A stretch of DNA of 64,000 bases from positions 970,501 to 1,034,500 of the forward strand of contig NZ_CP011924.1 of assembly GCF_000238315.3 (NCBI RefSeq), given 5' to 3'. This document shows, piece by piece, positions 29,679-42,195 of this stretch (positions are counted from its first letter, which is position 1; the number at the start of each line of letters is the position of its first letter). The stretch comes from Pseudoalteromonas piscicida. Lineage in GTDB: Bacteria; Pseudomonadota; Gammaproteobacteria; Enterobacterales; Alteromonadaceae. A program made the translations under genes and the position numbers. The notes beneath the pieces were generated by a model. It was given only the letters and a program-made list of their open reading frames with translations. It searched no databases and was not told where the DNA came from.

Positions 29679-31574
29679 ATGACAACAACAACCTATCAAC
29701 AGGCATATCAAACATTTTCCCAAGACCCAGAGGCATTTTGGCTTAAAGAAGCGGCACGGCTTGATTGGCATACGCCACCAAAAATCGGACATAACCAAGA
29801 CCAAGAGGGACTGAGTCATTGGTTTAGTGATGGCTTGATGAATACTAGTTATTTGGCACTCGACCATCATGTAAACCAAGGGAGAGCAGAGCAAACCGCG
29901 CTAATTTATGATTCGCCTGTGACGAATACAAAACGCAAAATTAGCTATCGAGAGTTGCTCTCTCAGGTGAGCCATTTTGCCGCTGGCTTAAATCAACTTG
30001 GTGTAAATGTAGGTGATAGGGTCGTAATTTATATGCCTATGGTGCCTGAAGCGGTCGTTGCTATGCTTGCTTGTGCGCGCGTGGGTGCTATTCATTCTGT
30101 GGTGTTTGGCGGCTTTGCACCTCATGAGCTTTTGGTGAGAATAGATGATGCTAAGCCAAAGCTAGTGATCAGCGCTTCTTGCGGAATTGAAATAGACCGC
30201 ATCATTGAATACAAACCTATGCTGGATGAAGCGCTCTCGTTGGCAAAGCATCAAGTGGAACATTGCATTGTGTTACAGCGTGAGGAGTACCAAGCGCAGA
30301 TTTCGTCGCCAAGGGACCTAGATTGGGCTGTGGTGGCAAACACGCCAGAATCCTTTGATGCCGTGCCGTTACCAAGCACCCATCCGCTTTATATTTTGTA
30401 TACCTCTGGCACCACAGGCACACCCAAAGGAGTAGTGCGAGAGCAGGGCGGTCACGCTGTGGCATTAAACTACAGTATGAAAACCGTTTACGGCATGGAG
30501 CCCGGTGAAGTGTTTTGGGCTGCATCCGACATTGGCTGGGTTGTGGGGCATTCTTATATTGTTTATGGCCCGCTGATTTATGGTTGCACCAGCGTATTAT
30601 ACGAAGGAAAACCGATTAAAACTCCAGATGCAGGGGCGTTTTGGCGAGTGGTCGAAGAATACCAAGTGGTTGCACTTTTTAGTGCTCCGACAGCATTTCG
30701 TGCCATAAAAAAAGAAGATCCGAGCGCAGCCCTCTTGGCTAACTACAACACCAGCAGTCTAAAAGCACTATTTTTAGCTGGTGAACGACTCGACCCTGCT
30801 ACCTACGACTGGCTACAGTCCACCACAAAGCTGCCGGTAATCGACCACTGGTGGCAAACGGAAACGGGCTGGGCAATTGCATCTAACCCAGTTGGAATTG
30901 AATTGATGCCTACAAAGGCGGGCAGTGCCACAGTTCCTACACCGGGCTATCAAGTTGAGATCCTTGATGTGGACGGCAGTCCATGTGAAGCCAATCAACA
31001 AGGTGTTGTTGCGGTTAAATTGCCACTTCCCCCTGGTTGTTTAACCACCATTTGGAATAATACAGCACGCTTTAAAGGCAGTTACTTATCACAATACCCC
31101 GGTTATTATCTCTCTGGTGGCGGCGGCTATTTTGATGGAGACGGCTATTTGTTTATTATGGGCCGCACCGATGACGTAATAAACGTAGCCGGGCATAGAC
31201 TGTCAACCGGTGAAATGGAAGAAATCGTCGCAGGTCACAATGCAATTGCAGAATGCGCCGTGTTTGGCGGTAAAGACGAGCTAAAAGGCCAAGTGCCTAT
31301 TGCCATGGTGGTACTGAAAGATGGCGTAAACACCACTGAAACGGCCATTGCCGAGGAAATAAGAAGCCTGATCCGCGAAAAAATCGGCGCGATTGCCTGT
31401 CTTAAAACCATTAAAGTGGTTGAGCGTTTACCCAAAACCCGTTCAGGTAAAATTCTTAGAAAGAACCTACGCCAGCTGGTAGACGGAGAAGACATTGTCG
31501 TGCCATCTACCATTGACGACCCCGCCATTATAGAAGAGTTAAAGCAATTGTGGGATGTGAGCCAGCACCAATAG
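29679..31574 (+). CDS. Propionyl-CoA/acetyl-CoA synthetase-like enzyme (PrpE type)
   Basis: 631 residues of the acyl-adenylating superfamily. YILYTSGTTGTPKGVVR is the P-loop-like motif, SDIGWVVGHSYIVYGPL and WWQTETGW the substrate region, GRTDDVINVAGHRLSTGEMEE the hinge, and TRSGKILRK near the end holds the acetylatable Lys. Overall it fits PrpE (propionyl-CoA synthetase) better than Acs, judged by length and the SHWFSDGLMNTSYLALD N-terminal region. No methylcitrate genes are nearby. Substrate uncertain between propionate and related short acids. Confidence 0.82.
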   Translation: MTTTTYQQAYQTFSQDPEAFWLKEAARLDWHTPPKIGHNQDQEGLSHWFSDGLMNTSYLALDHHVNQGRAEQTALIYDSPVTNTKRKISYRELLSQVSHFAAGLNQLGVNVGDRVVIYMPMVPEAVVAMLACARVGAIHSVVFGGFAPHELLVRIDDAKPKLVISASCGIEIDRIIEYKPMLDEALSLAKHQVEHCIVLQREEYQAQISSPRDLDWAVVANTPESFDAVPLPSTHPLYILYTSGTTGTPKGVVREQGGHAVALNYSMKTVYGMEPGEVFWAASDIGWVVGHSYIVYGPLIYGCTSVLYEGKPIKTPDAGAFWRVVEEYQVVALFSAPTAFRAIKKEDPSAALLANYNTSSLKALFLAGERLDPATYDWLQSTTKLPVIDHWWQTETGWAIASNPVGIELMPTKAGSATVPTPGYQVEILDVDGSPCEANQQGVVAVKLPLPPGCLTTIWNNTARFKGSYLSQYPGYYLSGGGGYFDGDGYLFIMGRTDDVINVAGHRLSTGEMEEIVAGHNAIAECAVFGGKDELKGQVPIAMVVLKDGVNTTETAIAEEIRSLIREKIGAIACLKTIKVVERLPKTRSGKILRKNLRQLVDGEDIVVPSTIDDPAIIEELKQLWDVSQHQ

Positions 31575-31626
31575 TTTTTGTGTGTTAGCCGGTTACCCCT
31601 AACGCTAAACGCGCATCAACATTAGT

Positions 31627-31704
31627 TAGGAGCGGGTTCACCCCGCGATTTTTTGGTGTGTCGTTCCTTCTAAAATCTGATGTCGCGATAAATCACAATC
31701 TACC
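31627..31704. repeat. REP-like palindromic unit A
   Basis: Core TTAGGAGCGGGTTCACCCC then GCGATT, with the hairpin GCGGG-TTCAC-CCCGC, and a second block GTCGCGATAAATCACAATC ending in CTACC. Same two-block layout as the units at 41.8-42.2 kb. Confidence 0.8.
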
Positions 31705-31863
31705 AGTTTTAGTCGCGATCTAGCGGTGCTGCTGAGCTATTAGAGTAACTTGTGTTAAGCGTGCAGCAATATTAGGTGGGAGATGTATGGACTCCTCCCC
31801 CTTAACGGGAGAGTACGGTATAAAGATATTGCAAAACACTTTTACCAAATAAGGAATCCATAC

Positions 31864-32895
31864 ATGACACAGTCTAATTTAATTGCTATCGACTTGGCAA
31901 AAAACATTTTCCAAGTAGCGCAGCTGAAAGGCAATAAACTCAAGTTTAATAAGCCAATGAAACGCGAACCTATGCTTGAGTTGCTAGCAAAAGCCGAGGG
32001 TTCAAAGGTCGTGATGGAAGCTTGTGGTAGCGCCCAGCACATTGCTCGCAAAGCGCTGTCGCTGGGGCACGATGTCATGTTGCTTCCCCCTAAATTTGTT
32101 AAAGCGTTTAGGCAAGGCCAAAAAACTGATGCAAATGATGTCCTCGCCATTGCCAGTGCAAGCCAAGCATATAACGTGAAGCCCTGTAAAATCATGACAG
32201 TTGAAGAGCAAACGTTGCAGTCATTGAGCCAAGCGAGAACCTTAGTAGATAAACAAAAGACTCAGCTTTCAAATCAAATACGTGGCTTGCTATTAGAGTT
32301 TGGTGTTGTCATTAATCAAGGCGATGCAGCGTTAACACAAGCGGTTCCAGATATTTTAGAAGATGCTGAAAATGCGCTCCCTATCGCATTAAAACAAGCA
32401 CTCGCGGTGAGTTACGAGCTATATAAAACACAATGTGCCGCTAAAGCACAACTACATAAACAAGTTGAAGCGATAACCAAGCAAAATGACAGTTGCCAGC
32501 GTTTAATGGCATTAGAAGGCGTTGGCCCAATTACCGCGATAGAGCTGTTATCATTTTTAGGCAATACTTCACAATTTAGTGATGCCAGAGGAGCGGCGGC
32601 ATGTGCAGGTGTTACACCGACCCAGCACTCATCAGGCGGAAAAGCCAAGATAGGTCATATCCCCAAAAGACGAGGCAATACATTAAGGAAAAACCTGTTT
32701 CTCGGTGCAAGAACGGTAGTCAGCAGGCTAAAACATAAAGAAGCGACCACAGAGAAAGAACGCTGGATAAAAAATCTACTCGCCAAGAAAAGCGTGAAAT
32801 GTGTTGCCATTGCATTGGCCAATAAAACGGTTAGAACCGCCTATGCCTTACTTAAAAACGGTTCAACATACGAGCCAAAAATCTTAGCGGCGTAG
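31864..32895 (+). CDS. IS110-family transposase/recombinase
   Basis: 343 residues from the ATG at 31864 (AAGGA 9-13 bases upstream). An in-frame ATG at 31783 lies on the first bases of the element and adds 27 unconserved residues. N-terminal RuvC-like DEDD domain: Asp10 (LIAIDLAKN), Glu52 (MEACGS), Asp89 and Asp92 (KTDANDVLAI). Then coiled-coil and C-terminal Tnp20-type domain (LMALEGVGPITAIELLSFLG; GVTPTQHSSGGK with Ser256/257 as candidate nucleophile). Moves the element by RNA-guided recombination, as shown for this superfamily. Confidence 0.9.
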   Translation: MTQSNLIAIDLAKNIFQVAQLKGNKLKFNKPMKREPMLELLAKAEGSKVVMEACGSAQHIARKALSLGHDVMLLPPKFVKAFRQGQKTDANDVLAIASASQAYNVKPCKIMTVEEQTLQSLSQARTLVDKQKTQLSNQIRGLLLEFGVVINQGDAALTQAVPDILEDAENALPIALKQALAVSYELYKTQCAAKAQLHKQVEAITKQNDSCQRLMALEGVGPITAIELLSFLGNTSQFSDARGAAACAGVTPTQHSSGGKAKIGHIPKRRGNTLRKNLFLGARTVVSRLKHKEATTEKERWIKNLLAKKSVKCVAIALANKTVRTAYALLKNGSTYEPKILAA

Positions 32896-33216
32896 CACTG
32901 AGTAACAGAAGAACAAATCAAGATAAACAGAACGTAAAAGCAGAAAGCATACTGAGATTACCCCCAGTATTGAACAAGCCAAGATAGAGCATTAAGCGGT
33001 GAGACCCACCCTTGAGAGCCTGTTAAACCGCAGGTGTATACAAATACCGCGTGGGAGAGAAGGCACAAGGGCGCGAATACATCAAAGAGGCCGAGGTAGC
33101 ACCTCATCAAGAGCCCGGATATAAGCACGCAATCACACTAATAATGCTAAAAGTGGCTTGTACAATTGGAGGAGTCCATATAAGCGGGTTCACCCCGCGA
33201 TCTTTTAATTGTGGTT
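32173..33216 (+). repeat. Tandem duplication, copy 1 (1044 bp)
   Basis: Runs from transposase codon 104 through the IS right end and 33 bases of REP flank to GTGGTT. The next 1044 bases repeat it. Differences found: A/G at 32199/33243 (silent), G/A at 32228/33272 (Ser to Asn) and T/C at 32775/33819 (silent). Confidence 0.93.
32896..33167 (+). ncRNA. Right-end noncoding region with putative bridge/seekRNA, copy 1
   Basis: About 270 bases without a gene between the transposase stop and the right inverted repeat, the position of the guide RNA in IS1111-group elements. Short stretches match the element's junctions. GTGGGAG (33051-33057) equals the left target. ATACATC (33077-33083) is the complement of the left element end (31782-31788). 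GAGCCCG (33111-33117) pairs with the right target CGGGTTC with one G-T wobble. ATATAAGC (33119-33126) equals the right element end (33178-33185). A GAGGT-AGC-ACCTC hairpin (33093-33105) separates the pairs. Exact RNA ends are not determined. Confidence 0.6.
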
Positions 33217-33939
33217 AACGTGAAGCCCTGTAAAATCATGACGGTTGAAGAGCAAACGTTGCAGTCATTGAACCAAGCGAGAACCTTAGTAGATAAACAA
33301 AAGACTCAGCTTTCAAATCAAATACGTGGCTTGCTATTAGAGTTTGGTGTTGTCATTAATCAAGGCGATGCAGCGTTAACACAAGCGGTTCCAGATATTT
33401 TAGAAGATGCTGAAAATGCGCTCCCTATCGCATTAAAACAAGCACTCGCGGTGAGTTACGAGCTATATAAAACACAATGTGCCGCTAAAGCACAACTACA
33501 TAAACAAGTTGAAGCGATAACCAAGCAAAATGACAGTTGCCAGCGTTTAATGGCATTAGAAGGCGTTGGCCCAATTACCGCGATAGAGCTGTTATCATTT
33601 TTAGGCAATACTTCACAATTTAGTGATGCCAGAGGAGCGGCGGCATGTGCAGGTGTTACACCGACCCAGCACTCATCAGGCGGAAAAGCCAAGATAGGTC
33701 ATATCCCCAAAAGACGAGGCAATACATTAAGGAAAAACCTGTTTCTCGGTGCAAGAACGGTAGTCAGCAGGCTAAAACATAAAGAAGCGACCACAGAGAA
33801 AGAACGCTGGATAAAAAACCTACTCGCCAAGAAAAGCGTGAAATGTGTTGCCATTGCATTGGCCAATAAAACGGTTAGAACCGCCTATGCCTTACTTAAA
33901 AACGGTTCAACATACGAGCCAAAAATCTTAGCGGCGTAG
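33217..33939 (+). pseudogene. Truncated IS110-family transposase (duplicate, N-terminus missing)
   Basis: Equals transposase residues 104/105-343 of the upstream copy with one substitution (Ser to Asn). An in-frame GTG at 33211 could start it, but the DEDD catalytic residues are absent, so it cannot cleave alone. It retains the C-terminal Ser-containing domain. Confidence 0.9.
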
Positions 33940-34211
33940 CACTGAGTAACAGAAGAACAAATCAAGATAAACAGAACGTAAAAGCAGAAAGCATACTGAG
34001 ATTACCCCCAGTATTGAACAAGCCAAGATAGAGCATTAAGCGGTGAGACCCACCCTTGAGAGCCTGTTAAACCGCAGGTGTATACAAATACCGCGTGGGA
34101 GAGAAGGCACAAGGGCGCGAATACATCAAAGAGGCCGAGGTAGCACCTCATCAAGAGCCCGGATATAAGCACGCAATCACACTAATAATGCTAAAAGTGG
34201 CTTGTACAATT
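33940..34211 (+). ncRNA. Right-end noncoding region with putative bridge/seekRNA, copy 2
   Basis: I see no difference from copy 1. The guide-like stretches lie 1044 bases further on (left-target match at 34095-34101, right-target match at 34155-34161). If transcribed it would give a second source of the same guide RNA without a full transposase gene in front. Confidence 0.5.
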
Positions 34212-34227
34212 GGAGGAGTCCATATAA

Positions 34228-34320
34228 GCGGGTTCACCCCGCGATCTTTTAATTGTGGTTCCCACTAAAATTTGATGTTGCGGTAAGTCACGAACAGCCA
34301 GTTTTAGTTACGTTCAGCTA
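34228..34320. repeat. Right part of the interrupted REP unit
   Basis: GCGGGTTCACCCCGCGATC, then a diverged second block GTTGCGGTAAGTCACGAAC. Together with TTAGGTGGGAG at 31773-31782 it rebuilds a full REP unit, so the IS inserted inside it. The first 33 bases also occur at 33184-33216 in copy 1. Confidence 0.75.
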
Positions 34321-34321
34321 T

Positions 34322-34346
34322 TGTCCGCAAACTGTCCGGTGTCCGT
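34322..34346 (+). promoter_or_regulatory. Cluster of TGTCCG half-sites (candidate enhancer)
   Basis: TGTCCGC (34322-34328), TGTCCGG (34333-34339) and TGTCCGT (34340-34346) are direct repeats 65-90 bases upstream of a sigma-54-like promoter. The same half-site forms a 7-bp inverted repeat at 34446-34465. These could bind the NtrC-type regulator encoded at 39137. Confidence 0.5.
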
Positions 34347-34409
34347 CCAATCCCCTTGAATAAAGCCGTTAAATATAATAAATGCTATATAAAACAGTAG
34401 TATAAATTC

Positions 34410-34424
34410 TGGCACACTACTTGT
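34410..34424 (+). promoter_or_regulatory. Sigma-54-type promoter of the efflux operon
   Basis: TGGCACACTACTTGT matches the -24/-12 consensus TGGCAC-N5-TTGC with correct spacing and one mismatch (GT for GC at -12). Transcription would start near 34436, 41 bases before the adaptor ATG. The operon encodes a sigma-54 activator, which supports the call. Confidence 0.6.
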
Positions 34425-34445
34425 AATTAGTTACTCATGATAATC

Positions 34446-34465
34446 GCGGACACCCACTTGTCCGC
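34446..34465. promoter_or_regulatory. Inverted repeat in the leader of the efflux operon
   Basis: GCGGACA-CCCACT-TGTCCGC, a perfect 7-bp inverted repeat ending 2 bases before the AGGAGG ribosome site (34468-34473). It may be a regulator site (same half-site as 34322-34346) or an mRNA hairpin near the start codon. Confidence 0.55.
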
Positions 34466-34476
34466 AAGGAGGTAGC

Positions 34477-35745
34477 ATGATTAAAGATACAAGTGTGCAA
34501 GACAAACAAATCGCAAAAAAGCGAACCATAAAAAAGCCGGTGATTGCGTTGTTGGCCGTTGGCATCACCTTAGCTGGATTAACCAGTACTTGGCCAAGCA
34601 TTAACACGATTCTGTCAGCAGAGCAGACCGTATCGCGCGAGCAAGTACGTCTCGCCACAGTAGTGAGAGGAGATATCAGCGAAGATATTCGCGTTGAAGG
34701 GCGTACGCTCGCTGCGAATAATCCAGACTTATACGCCATCGCATCGGGCACAGTAACACTCAATGTTAAACCCGGTGATGCCATCAAAGCGGGGCAAGCG
34801 TTGCTTAATATCGACAGTCCAGAGCTAACCAACCGTTTACTACAAGAAGAGGCGACATTTGAACGTTTACAAACGGAAGTTGAGCGCCAAAGGATCTCGA
34901 TTAAACAGCAGCTACTCGATACTGAACAACGCATGGAAATGGCGAAAGTAGACTTAGAAGCGGCAGAGCGGGAAATGGCACGCTCAAAACAAAGCATCGA
35001 AAAGCAAATTATCTCAAAACTAGAGCTTGAACAGTCAATGGTTGAACTTAAGCGCGCGCAGCTACAAGAGCGTCACGCCATCGATTCGCTAAAGCTTGAG
35101 CAAGAGCGACTTGCGTTTGAGCTAAAAAGTAGTGAGCTGAGCCTAACCAGACAACAGCATATTTTAGAAGAAGTGCAGCGTCAGGTAGCCGCTCTTAACA
35201 TTATTTCGCCGTTGTCAGGTATTGTTGGTACAGTGCATGTCCAGCAAAAGCAGTTTGTACAGCGAGATGCGGCATTAATCTCCTTGGTTGACCTTTCTGA
35301 GCTTGAGGTTGAAGCGCAAATACCAGAAATTTACGCCGACAATCTAGGTGTCGGCATGGCCGCTGAAGTATTTATCAATCAATACCAATATCACGCAAAG
35401 CTGGTCGCTATTTCCCCTGAAATCGAAGCAGGCCGTGTCAGTGCGCGAGTACGTTTTGATGAACAACCAAGCGGTCTTCGCCAAAACCAAAAGGTATCTA
35501 CAAGAATTATCCTGTCGCAAAAGCAAGACGTGCTCAAAGTAAGGCGTGGTGCATTTGTTGAAACCGGCGCTGGGCGTTTTACCTATGCGGTTGTCGGTGA
35601 GCAGGCTGATCAAACACCCATTCAGCTCGGTGTAAAAAGTATTTCTGAAGTTGAGATTATCGAGGGCCTGAATGAAGGACAAGAAATCGTGATCTCAAGT
35701 TTAGATCCGTTCAATAACAAAGCGCGAGTGTTACTCGGGAAGTAG
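34477..35745 (+). CDS. Periplasmic adaptor (HlyD/MacA family) of an ABC efflux system
   Basis: 422 residues. One N-terminal membrane helix (about 21-42), a split biotinyl-lipoyl domain (about 75-110 and 240-260: NVKPGDAIKAGQALLNIDSP; NIISPLSGIVGTVHV), a long coiled-coil hairpin between them (about 112-232, rich in Gln/Glu/Lys) and beta-barrel/membrane-proximal parts to the end. Links an inner-membrane ABC transporter to an outer-membrane channel. First gene of the operon; AGGAGG precedes the ATG. No TolC-like gene is present here. Confidence 0.87.
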   Translation: MIKDTSVQDKQIAKKRTIKKPVIALLAVGITLAGLTSTWPSINTILSAEQTVSREQVRLATVVRGDISEDIRVEGRTLAANNPDLYAIASGTVTLNVKPGDAIKAGQALLNIDSPELTNRLLQEEATFERLQTEVERQRISIKQQLLDTEQRMEMAKVDLEAAEREMARSKQSIEKQIISKLELEQSMVELKRAQLQERHAIDSLKLEQERLAFELKSSELSLTRQQHILEEVQRQVAALNIISPLSGIVGTVHVQQKQFVQRDAALISLVDLSELEVEAQIPEIYADNLGVGMAAEVFINQYQYHAKLVAISPEIEAGRVSARVRFDEQPSGLRQNQKVSTRIILSQKQDVLKVRRGAFVETGAGRFTYAVVGEQADQTPIQLGVKSISEVEIIEGLNEGQEIVISSLDPFNNKARVLLGK

Positions 35746-41816: not shown

Positions 41817-41909
41817 GGTGGGAGCGGATTCACTCCGCGATATTTGGGTTTTAATGGCGTATCTTAAGCAGCGAAAATCTCTTTGTCGTGATAAATCACA
41901 ATCTACCAG
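41817..41909. repeat. REP-like unit C
   Basis: GGTGGGAGCGGATTCACTCC then GCGATA, later GTCGTGATAAATCACAATC ending CTACC. Its hairpin reads GCGGA-TTCAC-TCCGC, with a paired change from the GCGGG/CCCGC of the other copies, which keeps the stem. Confidence 0.85.
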
Positions 41910-41956
41910 TCAGCTGCGCTGCTAAAGCAAATATTGTCCTAAAAGCTCAATTTCTG

Positions 41957-42048
41957 GTAGGAGCGGGTTCACCCCGCGATCTTTTTGGTTTTAATGCCGT
42001 ATTTCAGGCGGCGGAAATCTCTTTGTCGTGATAAATCACGACCTACAA
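41957..42048. repeat. REP-like unit D
   Basis: GGTAGGAGCGGGTTCACCCC then GCGATC, a middle that is nearly the same as in units C and E, and GTCGTGATAAATCACGACC ending CTAC. Confidence 0.88.
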
Positions 42049-42100
42049 ATAATAAGCTTCACAGGTTTATTTTATTGACTTCACTTTTTACTAAACGTAT

Positions 42101-42195
42101 GTAGGGTGGGAGCGGGTTCACCCCGCGATCTTTGGGTTTTAATGCCGTATCTTAGGCGGCAGAAATCCTTTGGTCAGATAAATCACGACCTACAA
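42101..42195. repeat. REP-like unit E
   Basis: GTAGGGTGGGAGCGGGTTCA then CCCCGCGATC, ending in ATAAATCACGACCTAC. It shows what the unoccupied IS target at 31773/34228 would look like (GGTGGGAGCGGG). The rest of 41791-42273 shows no gene. Confidence 0.88.

Follow-up and report, generated by a model that had tools for sequence, protein, structure and literature searches.

An RNA-guided mechanism for elements of this kind was already described in 2024, and two reports from that year provide the closest comparisons. In the available text of the first (PMC11187229), the seekRNAs of IS1111 elements have their target matches arranged as in the RNA described below, a promoter is formed at the joined ends of the element, and the domain that binds the IS ends is stated as not known. 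In the available text of the second (PMC11208160), donor-binding nucleotides were predicted by manual inspection for six elements, including ISPa11 of the IS1111 group. A literature search by title produced no later paper devoted to IS1111 donor guides, a weak negative result since bioRxiv and most subscription papers lie outside its coverage.

The element described here lies in a window of 64,000 nucleotides (the whole stretch of DNA that was analysed) from the genome of Pseudoalteromonas piscicida. It shares with the IS1111 seekRNA elements ISPa11, which has a Pseudomonas REP target, and ISEc11, as far as these are described in the available text of PMC11187229, a DEDD transposase, subterminal inverted repeats and a downstream noncoding region, together with the strand order of the guides, the absence of target duplication and natural retargeting; a REP target is common to this element and ISPa11. 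Two differences from these elements are the right guide of the window's subgroup, which is mismatched at the core A, and the presence of two donor guides backed by co-variation, whereas the available text of that paper reports none. The predicted RNA also resembles the IS621/IS110 bridge RNA, as presented in the available text of PMC11208160, in having two loops with two guides per loop, a core that would be read in both and a donor loop that would read the joined ends. However, it is located in the right end rather than the left, the strand order of its target guides is reversed, and the core reads AG on the strand of the transposase gene and CT on the opposite one.

This is very probably an IS1111-family element in which the 3′ noncoding region encodes a guide RNA of two loops, by which the DEDD recombinase is steered, in agreement with a first-pass annotation of the sequence, which had proposed that the element is of IS1111 type and has its guide RNA at the right end. 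The wider reading that IS1111 RNAs are generally four-guide bridge RNAs addressing both target sides and the element's own ends, with a right guide that has been loosened in the window's subgroup, is considered probable, with appreciable doubt. What is added here is comparative sequence evidence suggesting that the RNAs of IS1111 elements recognize the ends of the element as well as the target, together with an apparently odd, loose right guide; the gain is modest. It bears on a question left by the 2024 papers for IS1111, the reading by the RNA of the element's own ends.

The element and its target site

The element and its surroundings comprise the following features.

31776–31782, + strand: left target flank GTGGGAG, in which AG is the core dinucleotide (from the sequence and empty sites)
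31781–33182, + strand: IS1111-type insertion sequence of 1,402 bp, with one copy of the shared AG dinucleotide assigned to the target
31786–31798, + strand: left subterminal inverted repeat TATGGACTCCTCC (repeat search; 13/13 with the right repeat)
31864–32895, + strand: DEDD transposase/recombinase gene, 343 amino acids, a stop-free frame
33158–33163, + strand: TTGTAC, the possible −35 element of a promoter that would be made on joining of the ends (TTG in 23/23 rows of an alignment)
33168–33180, + strand: right subterminal inverted repeat GGAGGAGTCCATA (repeat search; 13/13 with the left repeat)
33183–33192, + strand: core AG and right target flank CGGGTTCA, the first half of the REP palindrome (from the sequence and empty sites)

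The ends at 31781 and 33182 are based on comparison of both junctions with empty REP sites and on empty sites in similar flanking DNA (L188, L189 and L191), and the element between them is intact. The transposase matches the Pfam families DEDD_Tnp_IS110 and Transposase_20, each above the curated cut-off, and the presence of both a DEDD (RuvC-like) N-terminal domain and a Transposase_20 C-terminal domain is a trait of the IS1111 family. The nearest solved structures by sequence are those of ISCro4 (9t56) and IS621 (8wt6). With the boundaries given by the empty sites, the inverted repeats are read as 12 bp long, leaving extensions of 6 and 3 bp beyond them, in accord with the subterminal repeats of usually 11–13 bp and asymmetric extensions of 7/3, or occasionally 6/3, that define IS1111 elements. 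The 272 nt noncoding stretch between the stop codon and the right repeat fits the same family, as does the use, in the copies looked at, of a specific target in a single orientation without target duplication.

Empty REP sites within the window genome read GTRGGAG/CGGGTTCACCCCGCGAT at most of the places shown. In other genomes, DNA resembling the window's left flank runs into a REP array with an empty site, the sequence of which is ATTAGGTGGGAGCGGGTTCACCCC in L188 and L191 and has GTAGGAG instead in L189; one of the L191 repeats also has the window's right flank, up to TTGATGTTGCG. These empty sites in related genomes therefore indicate precise insertion without target duplication, with an AG dinucleotide common to both junctions. 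Three further target-type REPs, all of them empty, are present at 41824–42129 of the window.

Among named organisms, the nearest relatives of the element belong to Pseudoalteromonas, namely P. flavipulchra (87–98% at the protein level) and Pseudoalteromonas sp. NC201 (96.7% at the DNA level); more distant ones include Alteromonas, Vibrio and Nitrosomonas. The relatives collected comprise 59 loci from a search of genome contigs, matches in 25 of the 108 genomes of the genus (its own genome counted), additional right ends in 17 of 107 genomes, and 31 regions. From these, 54 distinct combinations of RNA and right flank, with 35 distinct RNAs, were kept and sorted by hand into 11 subgroups according to transposase identity and ends. 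Eight distinct right ends lacking a complete RNA and right ends with a repeat departing from the search motif (e.g. L123) were dropped before the counts. As the copies are kin, the permutation figures given below are not strict probabilities.

Consensus fold and donor guides

The right end yields the following RNA features.

33002–33131, + strand: guide-RNA core, comprising the target loop and the donor loop (alignment of 35 RNAs; consensus fold)
33009–33071, + strand: target loop, closed by helices 33009–33014/33066–33071 and 33019–33021/33061–33063, in which 7/9 pairs changed on both sides
33033–33037/33044–33048, + strand: inner hairpin of the target loop, from the window's own fold only
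33073–33130, + strand: donor loop, with helices 33073–33074/33129–33130 and 33087–33091/33113–33116 and hairpin 33093–33096/33102–33105
33077–33083, + strand: donor guide 1 (ATACATC), complementary to the left IS end (permutations; co-variation with the left end)
33119–33125, + strand: donor guide 2 (ATATAAG), identical to the right IS end and core (permutations; occurrence of the element's own end)

A covariation fold across homologous right ends, a check proposed in the first-pass annotation, gives a two-loop consensus of 19 pairs, 13 of which have changed on both sides. Changes on both sides of the helices amount to 101 cells compared with 24.7 in shuffles (0/500 shuffles as good). The fraction of cells that pair is 96.4%, compared with 82.2% when shuffled and 32–49% when the partners are slid, although better pairing than in the slid versions is to be expected of a structure derived from the same sequences. 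One of the five fold measures is less clear-cut, with 26 further pair types versus 21.6 in shuffles (6/500). The GAGGT/ACCTC hairpin at 33093–33097/33101–33105, already recognized by eye, has pairs that vary on both sides in the relatives. At the inner hairpin of the target loop the single-sequence folds of the relatives disagree with one another. The single-sequence fold of the RNA core alone is weak (z = −1.77), and that of a longer region beats shuffles (z = −4.05). The case for the predicted RNA structure is founded on the alignment, not on single-sequence folding. A search of positions 31400–34600 against Rfam returned no family with an E value of 1 or below.

In the proposed mechanism, the noncoding right end would be transcribed and processed into an RNA that is bound by the recombinase, as are the 70–100 nt seekRNAs of IS1111 type by their transposases. 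Within the first loop, residues 33022–33032 would pair with the top strand to the right of the insertion point and residues 33051–33057 with the bottom strand to the left of it, so that the RNA would seek REPs in which GTGGGAG is followed by approximately NNGGTTYA. Within the second loop, residues 33077–33083 would pair with the left IS end and residues 33119–33125 with the right IS end, both presented in a circle of joined ends, an intermediate characteristic of the IS1111 family. The RNA-bound DEDD recombinase could then exchange strands at the shared AG, with insertion in a single orientation and without target duplication.

The evidence for the second loop comes from changes in the ends of relatives. 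ATACATC is the reverse complement of GATGTAT at 31782–31788, as had been pointed out from the sequence, and its proposed role in reading the left IS end is borne out: among 20 representatives, the segment matches the complement of its own left end at a mean of 5.90/8 positions versus 5.02 for other ends (14 end classes; 0/20,000 permutations), the individual fits being partial (5–8 of 8). The base following ATG at the left IS end and its counterpart before CAT in the RNA form the combinations T:A (26), A:T (8) and G:C (5), i.e. they are complementary in all 39 of the elements that could be parsed, out of 52; seven of the 13 unparsed elements lack the anchor ATG or were mis-parsed. On the other side, ATATAAGC at 33119–33126 equals 33178–33185, and the reading of the right end suggested by this identity also holds among the relatives. 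The 20 representatives match their own right-end sequence at 6.70/7 positions versus 5.26 for other ends (eight classes; 1/20,000), and the element's own right-end 6-mer occurs in the RNA stretch of 46 of the 52 elements, with six lacking an exact copy, compared with 6/468 for the right ends of other elements. A second loop with two segments pairing with the two IS ends, a trait of bridge RNAs, is thus found on comparative evidence.

One alternative is that the RNA reads the target only, as a seekRNA in the narrow sense, and that the protein recognizes the IS ends through the inverted repeats; the donor-like segments would then resemble the ends for another reason, such as a single protein surface that binds both RNA and DNA. 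The inverted repeats of the window element are indeed long and, in the available text of PMC11187229, an 82 nt ISEc11 seekRNA was enough for transposition and target matches alone were identified. However, from one end class to another the two donor segments change together with the ends in the manner expected of base pairing, one as a complement and the other as an identity, and the target-only explanation is considered unlikely.

The core dinucleotide is itself variable (AG, CG, TG or undefined) and five changes are needed on the transposase tree, a count that depends on core labels assigned by hand from the junctions and on a tree with several long branches, in which the L073 row is a partial transposase with a meaningless core label. 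If the four-guide reading is correct, the IS ends, the core dinucleotide (AG, CG or TG) and the RNA would evolve together.

Target guides and choice of site

Two segments of the first loop are assigned to the target.

33022–33032, + strand: right-target guide GTTAAACCGCA, complementary to the top strand to the right of the core (subgroup permutations)
33051–33057, + strand: left-target guide GTGGGAG, identical to the top strand to the left of the core, core included (subgroup permutations; near-identical copies)

The two are ordered with the top-strand complement 5′ of the bottom-strand complement, as in IS1111-type seekRNAs. CCCACC at 33005–33010 is a by-eye candidate for a further complement of the left flank.

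The identity of GTGGGAG at 33051–33057 with 31776–31782 had been interpreted in the first-pass annotation as a guide for the left flank, and the segment does track this flank, both across subgroups and among near-identical copies. Excluding the core, it matches the left flanks of its own subgroup at 4.22/5 positions versus 1.71 for other subgroups (eight subgroups, that of L044, L045 and L047 being excluded; 0/20,000 permutations). Including the core, the values are 6.19/7 and 3.11 (nine subgroups; 1/20,000); here L044, L045 and L047, the left flanks of which end at 6 nt at contig ends, entered with 6 nt, so that their score of 7/7 is a scaled 6/6, and L139, with a mutated left end scoring 2/7, was retained. 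In the window's subgroup, where the guide is either GTGGGAG or GTAGGAG, guide and left flank agree in 12 of the 13 combinations for which this flank is known, the sole exception being a G–T wobble. Near-identical copies with GTAGGAG in the RNA sit in GTAGGAG sites in 8/8 cases. Within one genus, this provides a natural series of near-identical recombinases in which guide and target have changed together, which helps in telling strict from loose guide positions.

The right-target guide had been overlooked. The stretch from 33021 (the best of five offsets) matches the right flanks of its own subgroup at 6.28/8 positions versus 3.69 for others (11 subgroups; 0/20,000). In the window's subgroup the fit is imperfect, with the core A unpaired in 15/15 combinations in either of two registers. 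Set one base off the register of the relatives, the guide pairs in 78/90 cells at positions +3 to +8 and in 90/150 overall; in the register of the closest relatives (subgroups 74 and 58) the counts are 56/90 and 84/150. The core G is paired in 15/15 combinations in the relatives' register and in 0/15 in the shifted register. The two target matches of IS1111-type seekRNAs share bases at the core. In nine other subgroups (subgroup 44 being excluded owing to its short flank) the right guide pairs with the first core base in 37/38 combinations, and in subgroup 47A the first base to the right of the core pairs with the guide base in six of seven combinations, the seventh being a G–U wobble. The right guide of the window's subgroup has either drifted or is directed chiefly at the invariant portion of the REP. 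If it has been loosened, it would pair mainly with this invariant part and not with the variable first bases or the core A, and one RNA could serve many REP variants.

That the matches are due to chance, or to a REP-like sequence acquired by the IS end without any guide function, is very improbable. REP-like motifs are frequent (250 matches to a broad motif in the window genome versus 27 for a backward control). For a single match, simple arithmetic bears out the estimate of about a 2% chance per 7-mer given in the first-pass annotation. All four letter matches are present in the sequence; as they had been picked by eye post hoc, chance was judged using the relatives, with the result that three were kept and one was removed. 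Against a chance origin, subgroups with targets that are not REP-like match at the same aligned positions of the RNA, and the subgroup permutations for the target guides given above point the same way.

The match that was removed is GAGCCCG at 33111–33117, which is complementary to CGGGTTC at 33185–33191 of the right flank (six pairs and one G–T wobble, at this one site) but was rejected as the right-target guide, a role now given almost no credence, since it stays GAGCCCG or GAGTCCG, GAAACCG, AAGCCCG or GAGCCTG regardless of the right flank and is retained in copies with other right flanks, fits the right flanks of its own subgroup at a chance level (3.11/8 versus 3.02 for others; 4,980/20,000 permutations as good), includes one strand of a helix that shows compensatory changes and would impose an order opposite to that of published IS1111 RNAs. 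The refuting condition named in the first-pass annotation, the same guide letters in copies at different targets, thus applies to GAGCCCG, whereas GTGGGAG withstands it. The strand concerned is GCCC (33113–33116), the 3′ strand of the middle helix of the donor loop, which is partnered by 33087–33091; one pair of this helix changes from GC to AU or UA in 10/35 rows, with five more rows unpaired, and a second changes from CG to UA in 5/35 rows. The interleaved order of segments implied by the first-pass annotation is replaced by right guide and left guide in the target loop, followed by left end and right end in the donor loop.

The distribution of insertions among REP variants is consistent with guidance by the left-target guide. 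Matches to the motif in the window genome number 30 for GTGGGAG, 104 for GTAGGAG and 100 for GTAGCAG (backward-pattern controls 2, 6 and 9, respectively), and 4/4 left ends are in GTGGGAG although only 30/234 motif matches carry this variant (binomial probability 2.7 × 10−4). In genome G072, where the RNA reads GTAGGAG and the motif counts are 88, 144 and 110 for the same three variants, 8/8 left ends are in GTAGGAG compared with a background of 144/342 (9.9 × 10−4). In genome G075, where the RNA reads GTGGGAG, two of three insertions are in GTGGGAG compared with a background of 46/269, and one insertion differs from the guide by a wobble. The three insertions of the 74% subgroup are all in GTAGCAG, which carries little information because this is the commonest motif type in those genomes. 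These counts are indications, because the copies may be non-independent and the REPs sit in arrays, which push up the background motif counts.

Other copies and derivatives

A second, incomplete copy follows the element in the window.

33213–34256, + strand: tandem partial duplicate of the IS, with the transposase from about codon 103, the whole RNA region and the right flank

The genome of the window (G000) is in two contigs (4.25 and 1.23 Mb) and holds several related copies. The 5′-truncated copy at 33213–34256 and that in L156 (G000:C1:4141500–4146500) begin at the same internal nucleotide, AACGTGAAGCCC, at about codon 103. Both are fused to the same right flank, each at a different point of it, and the junctions show no clear microhomology of more than one or two bases. 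A third copy (L003 and L155; G000:C1:53354–54789) is 98% identical; its transposase frame is broken into two pieces, one with three stops, its RNA core is unchanged and both of its ends are present. L153 (G000:C2:622976–623333) is an internal-deletion derivative that has kept both ends but retains little of the transposase gene or of the target guides, and is possibly a non-autonomous copy.

A second IS1111-type element, with a transposase that is 37% identical, is present at five places in the same genome (L018–L022). The two copies looked at (L021 and L022) have the ends GATGTAATGG/CCATATATG and an RNA with matching donor segments. In another genome, three copies of a related IS lie in direct tandem with a spacing of 1,709 bp (L141; G032:C7:264209–270434).
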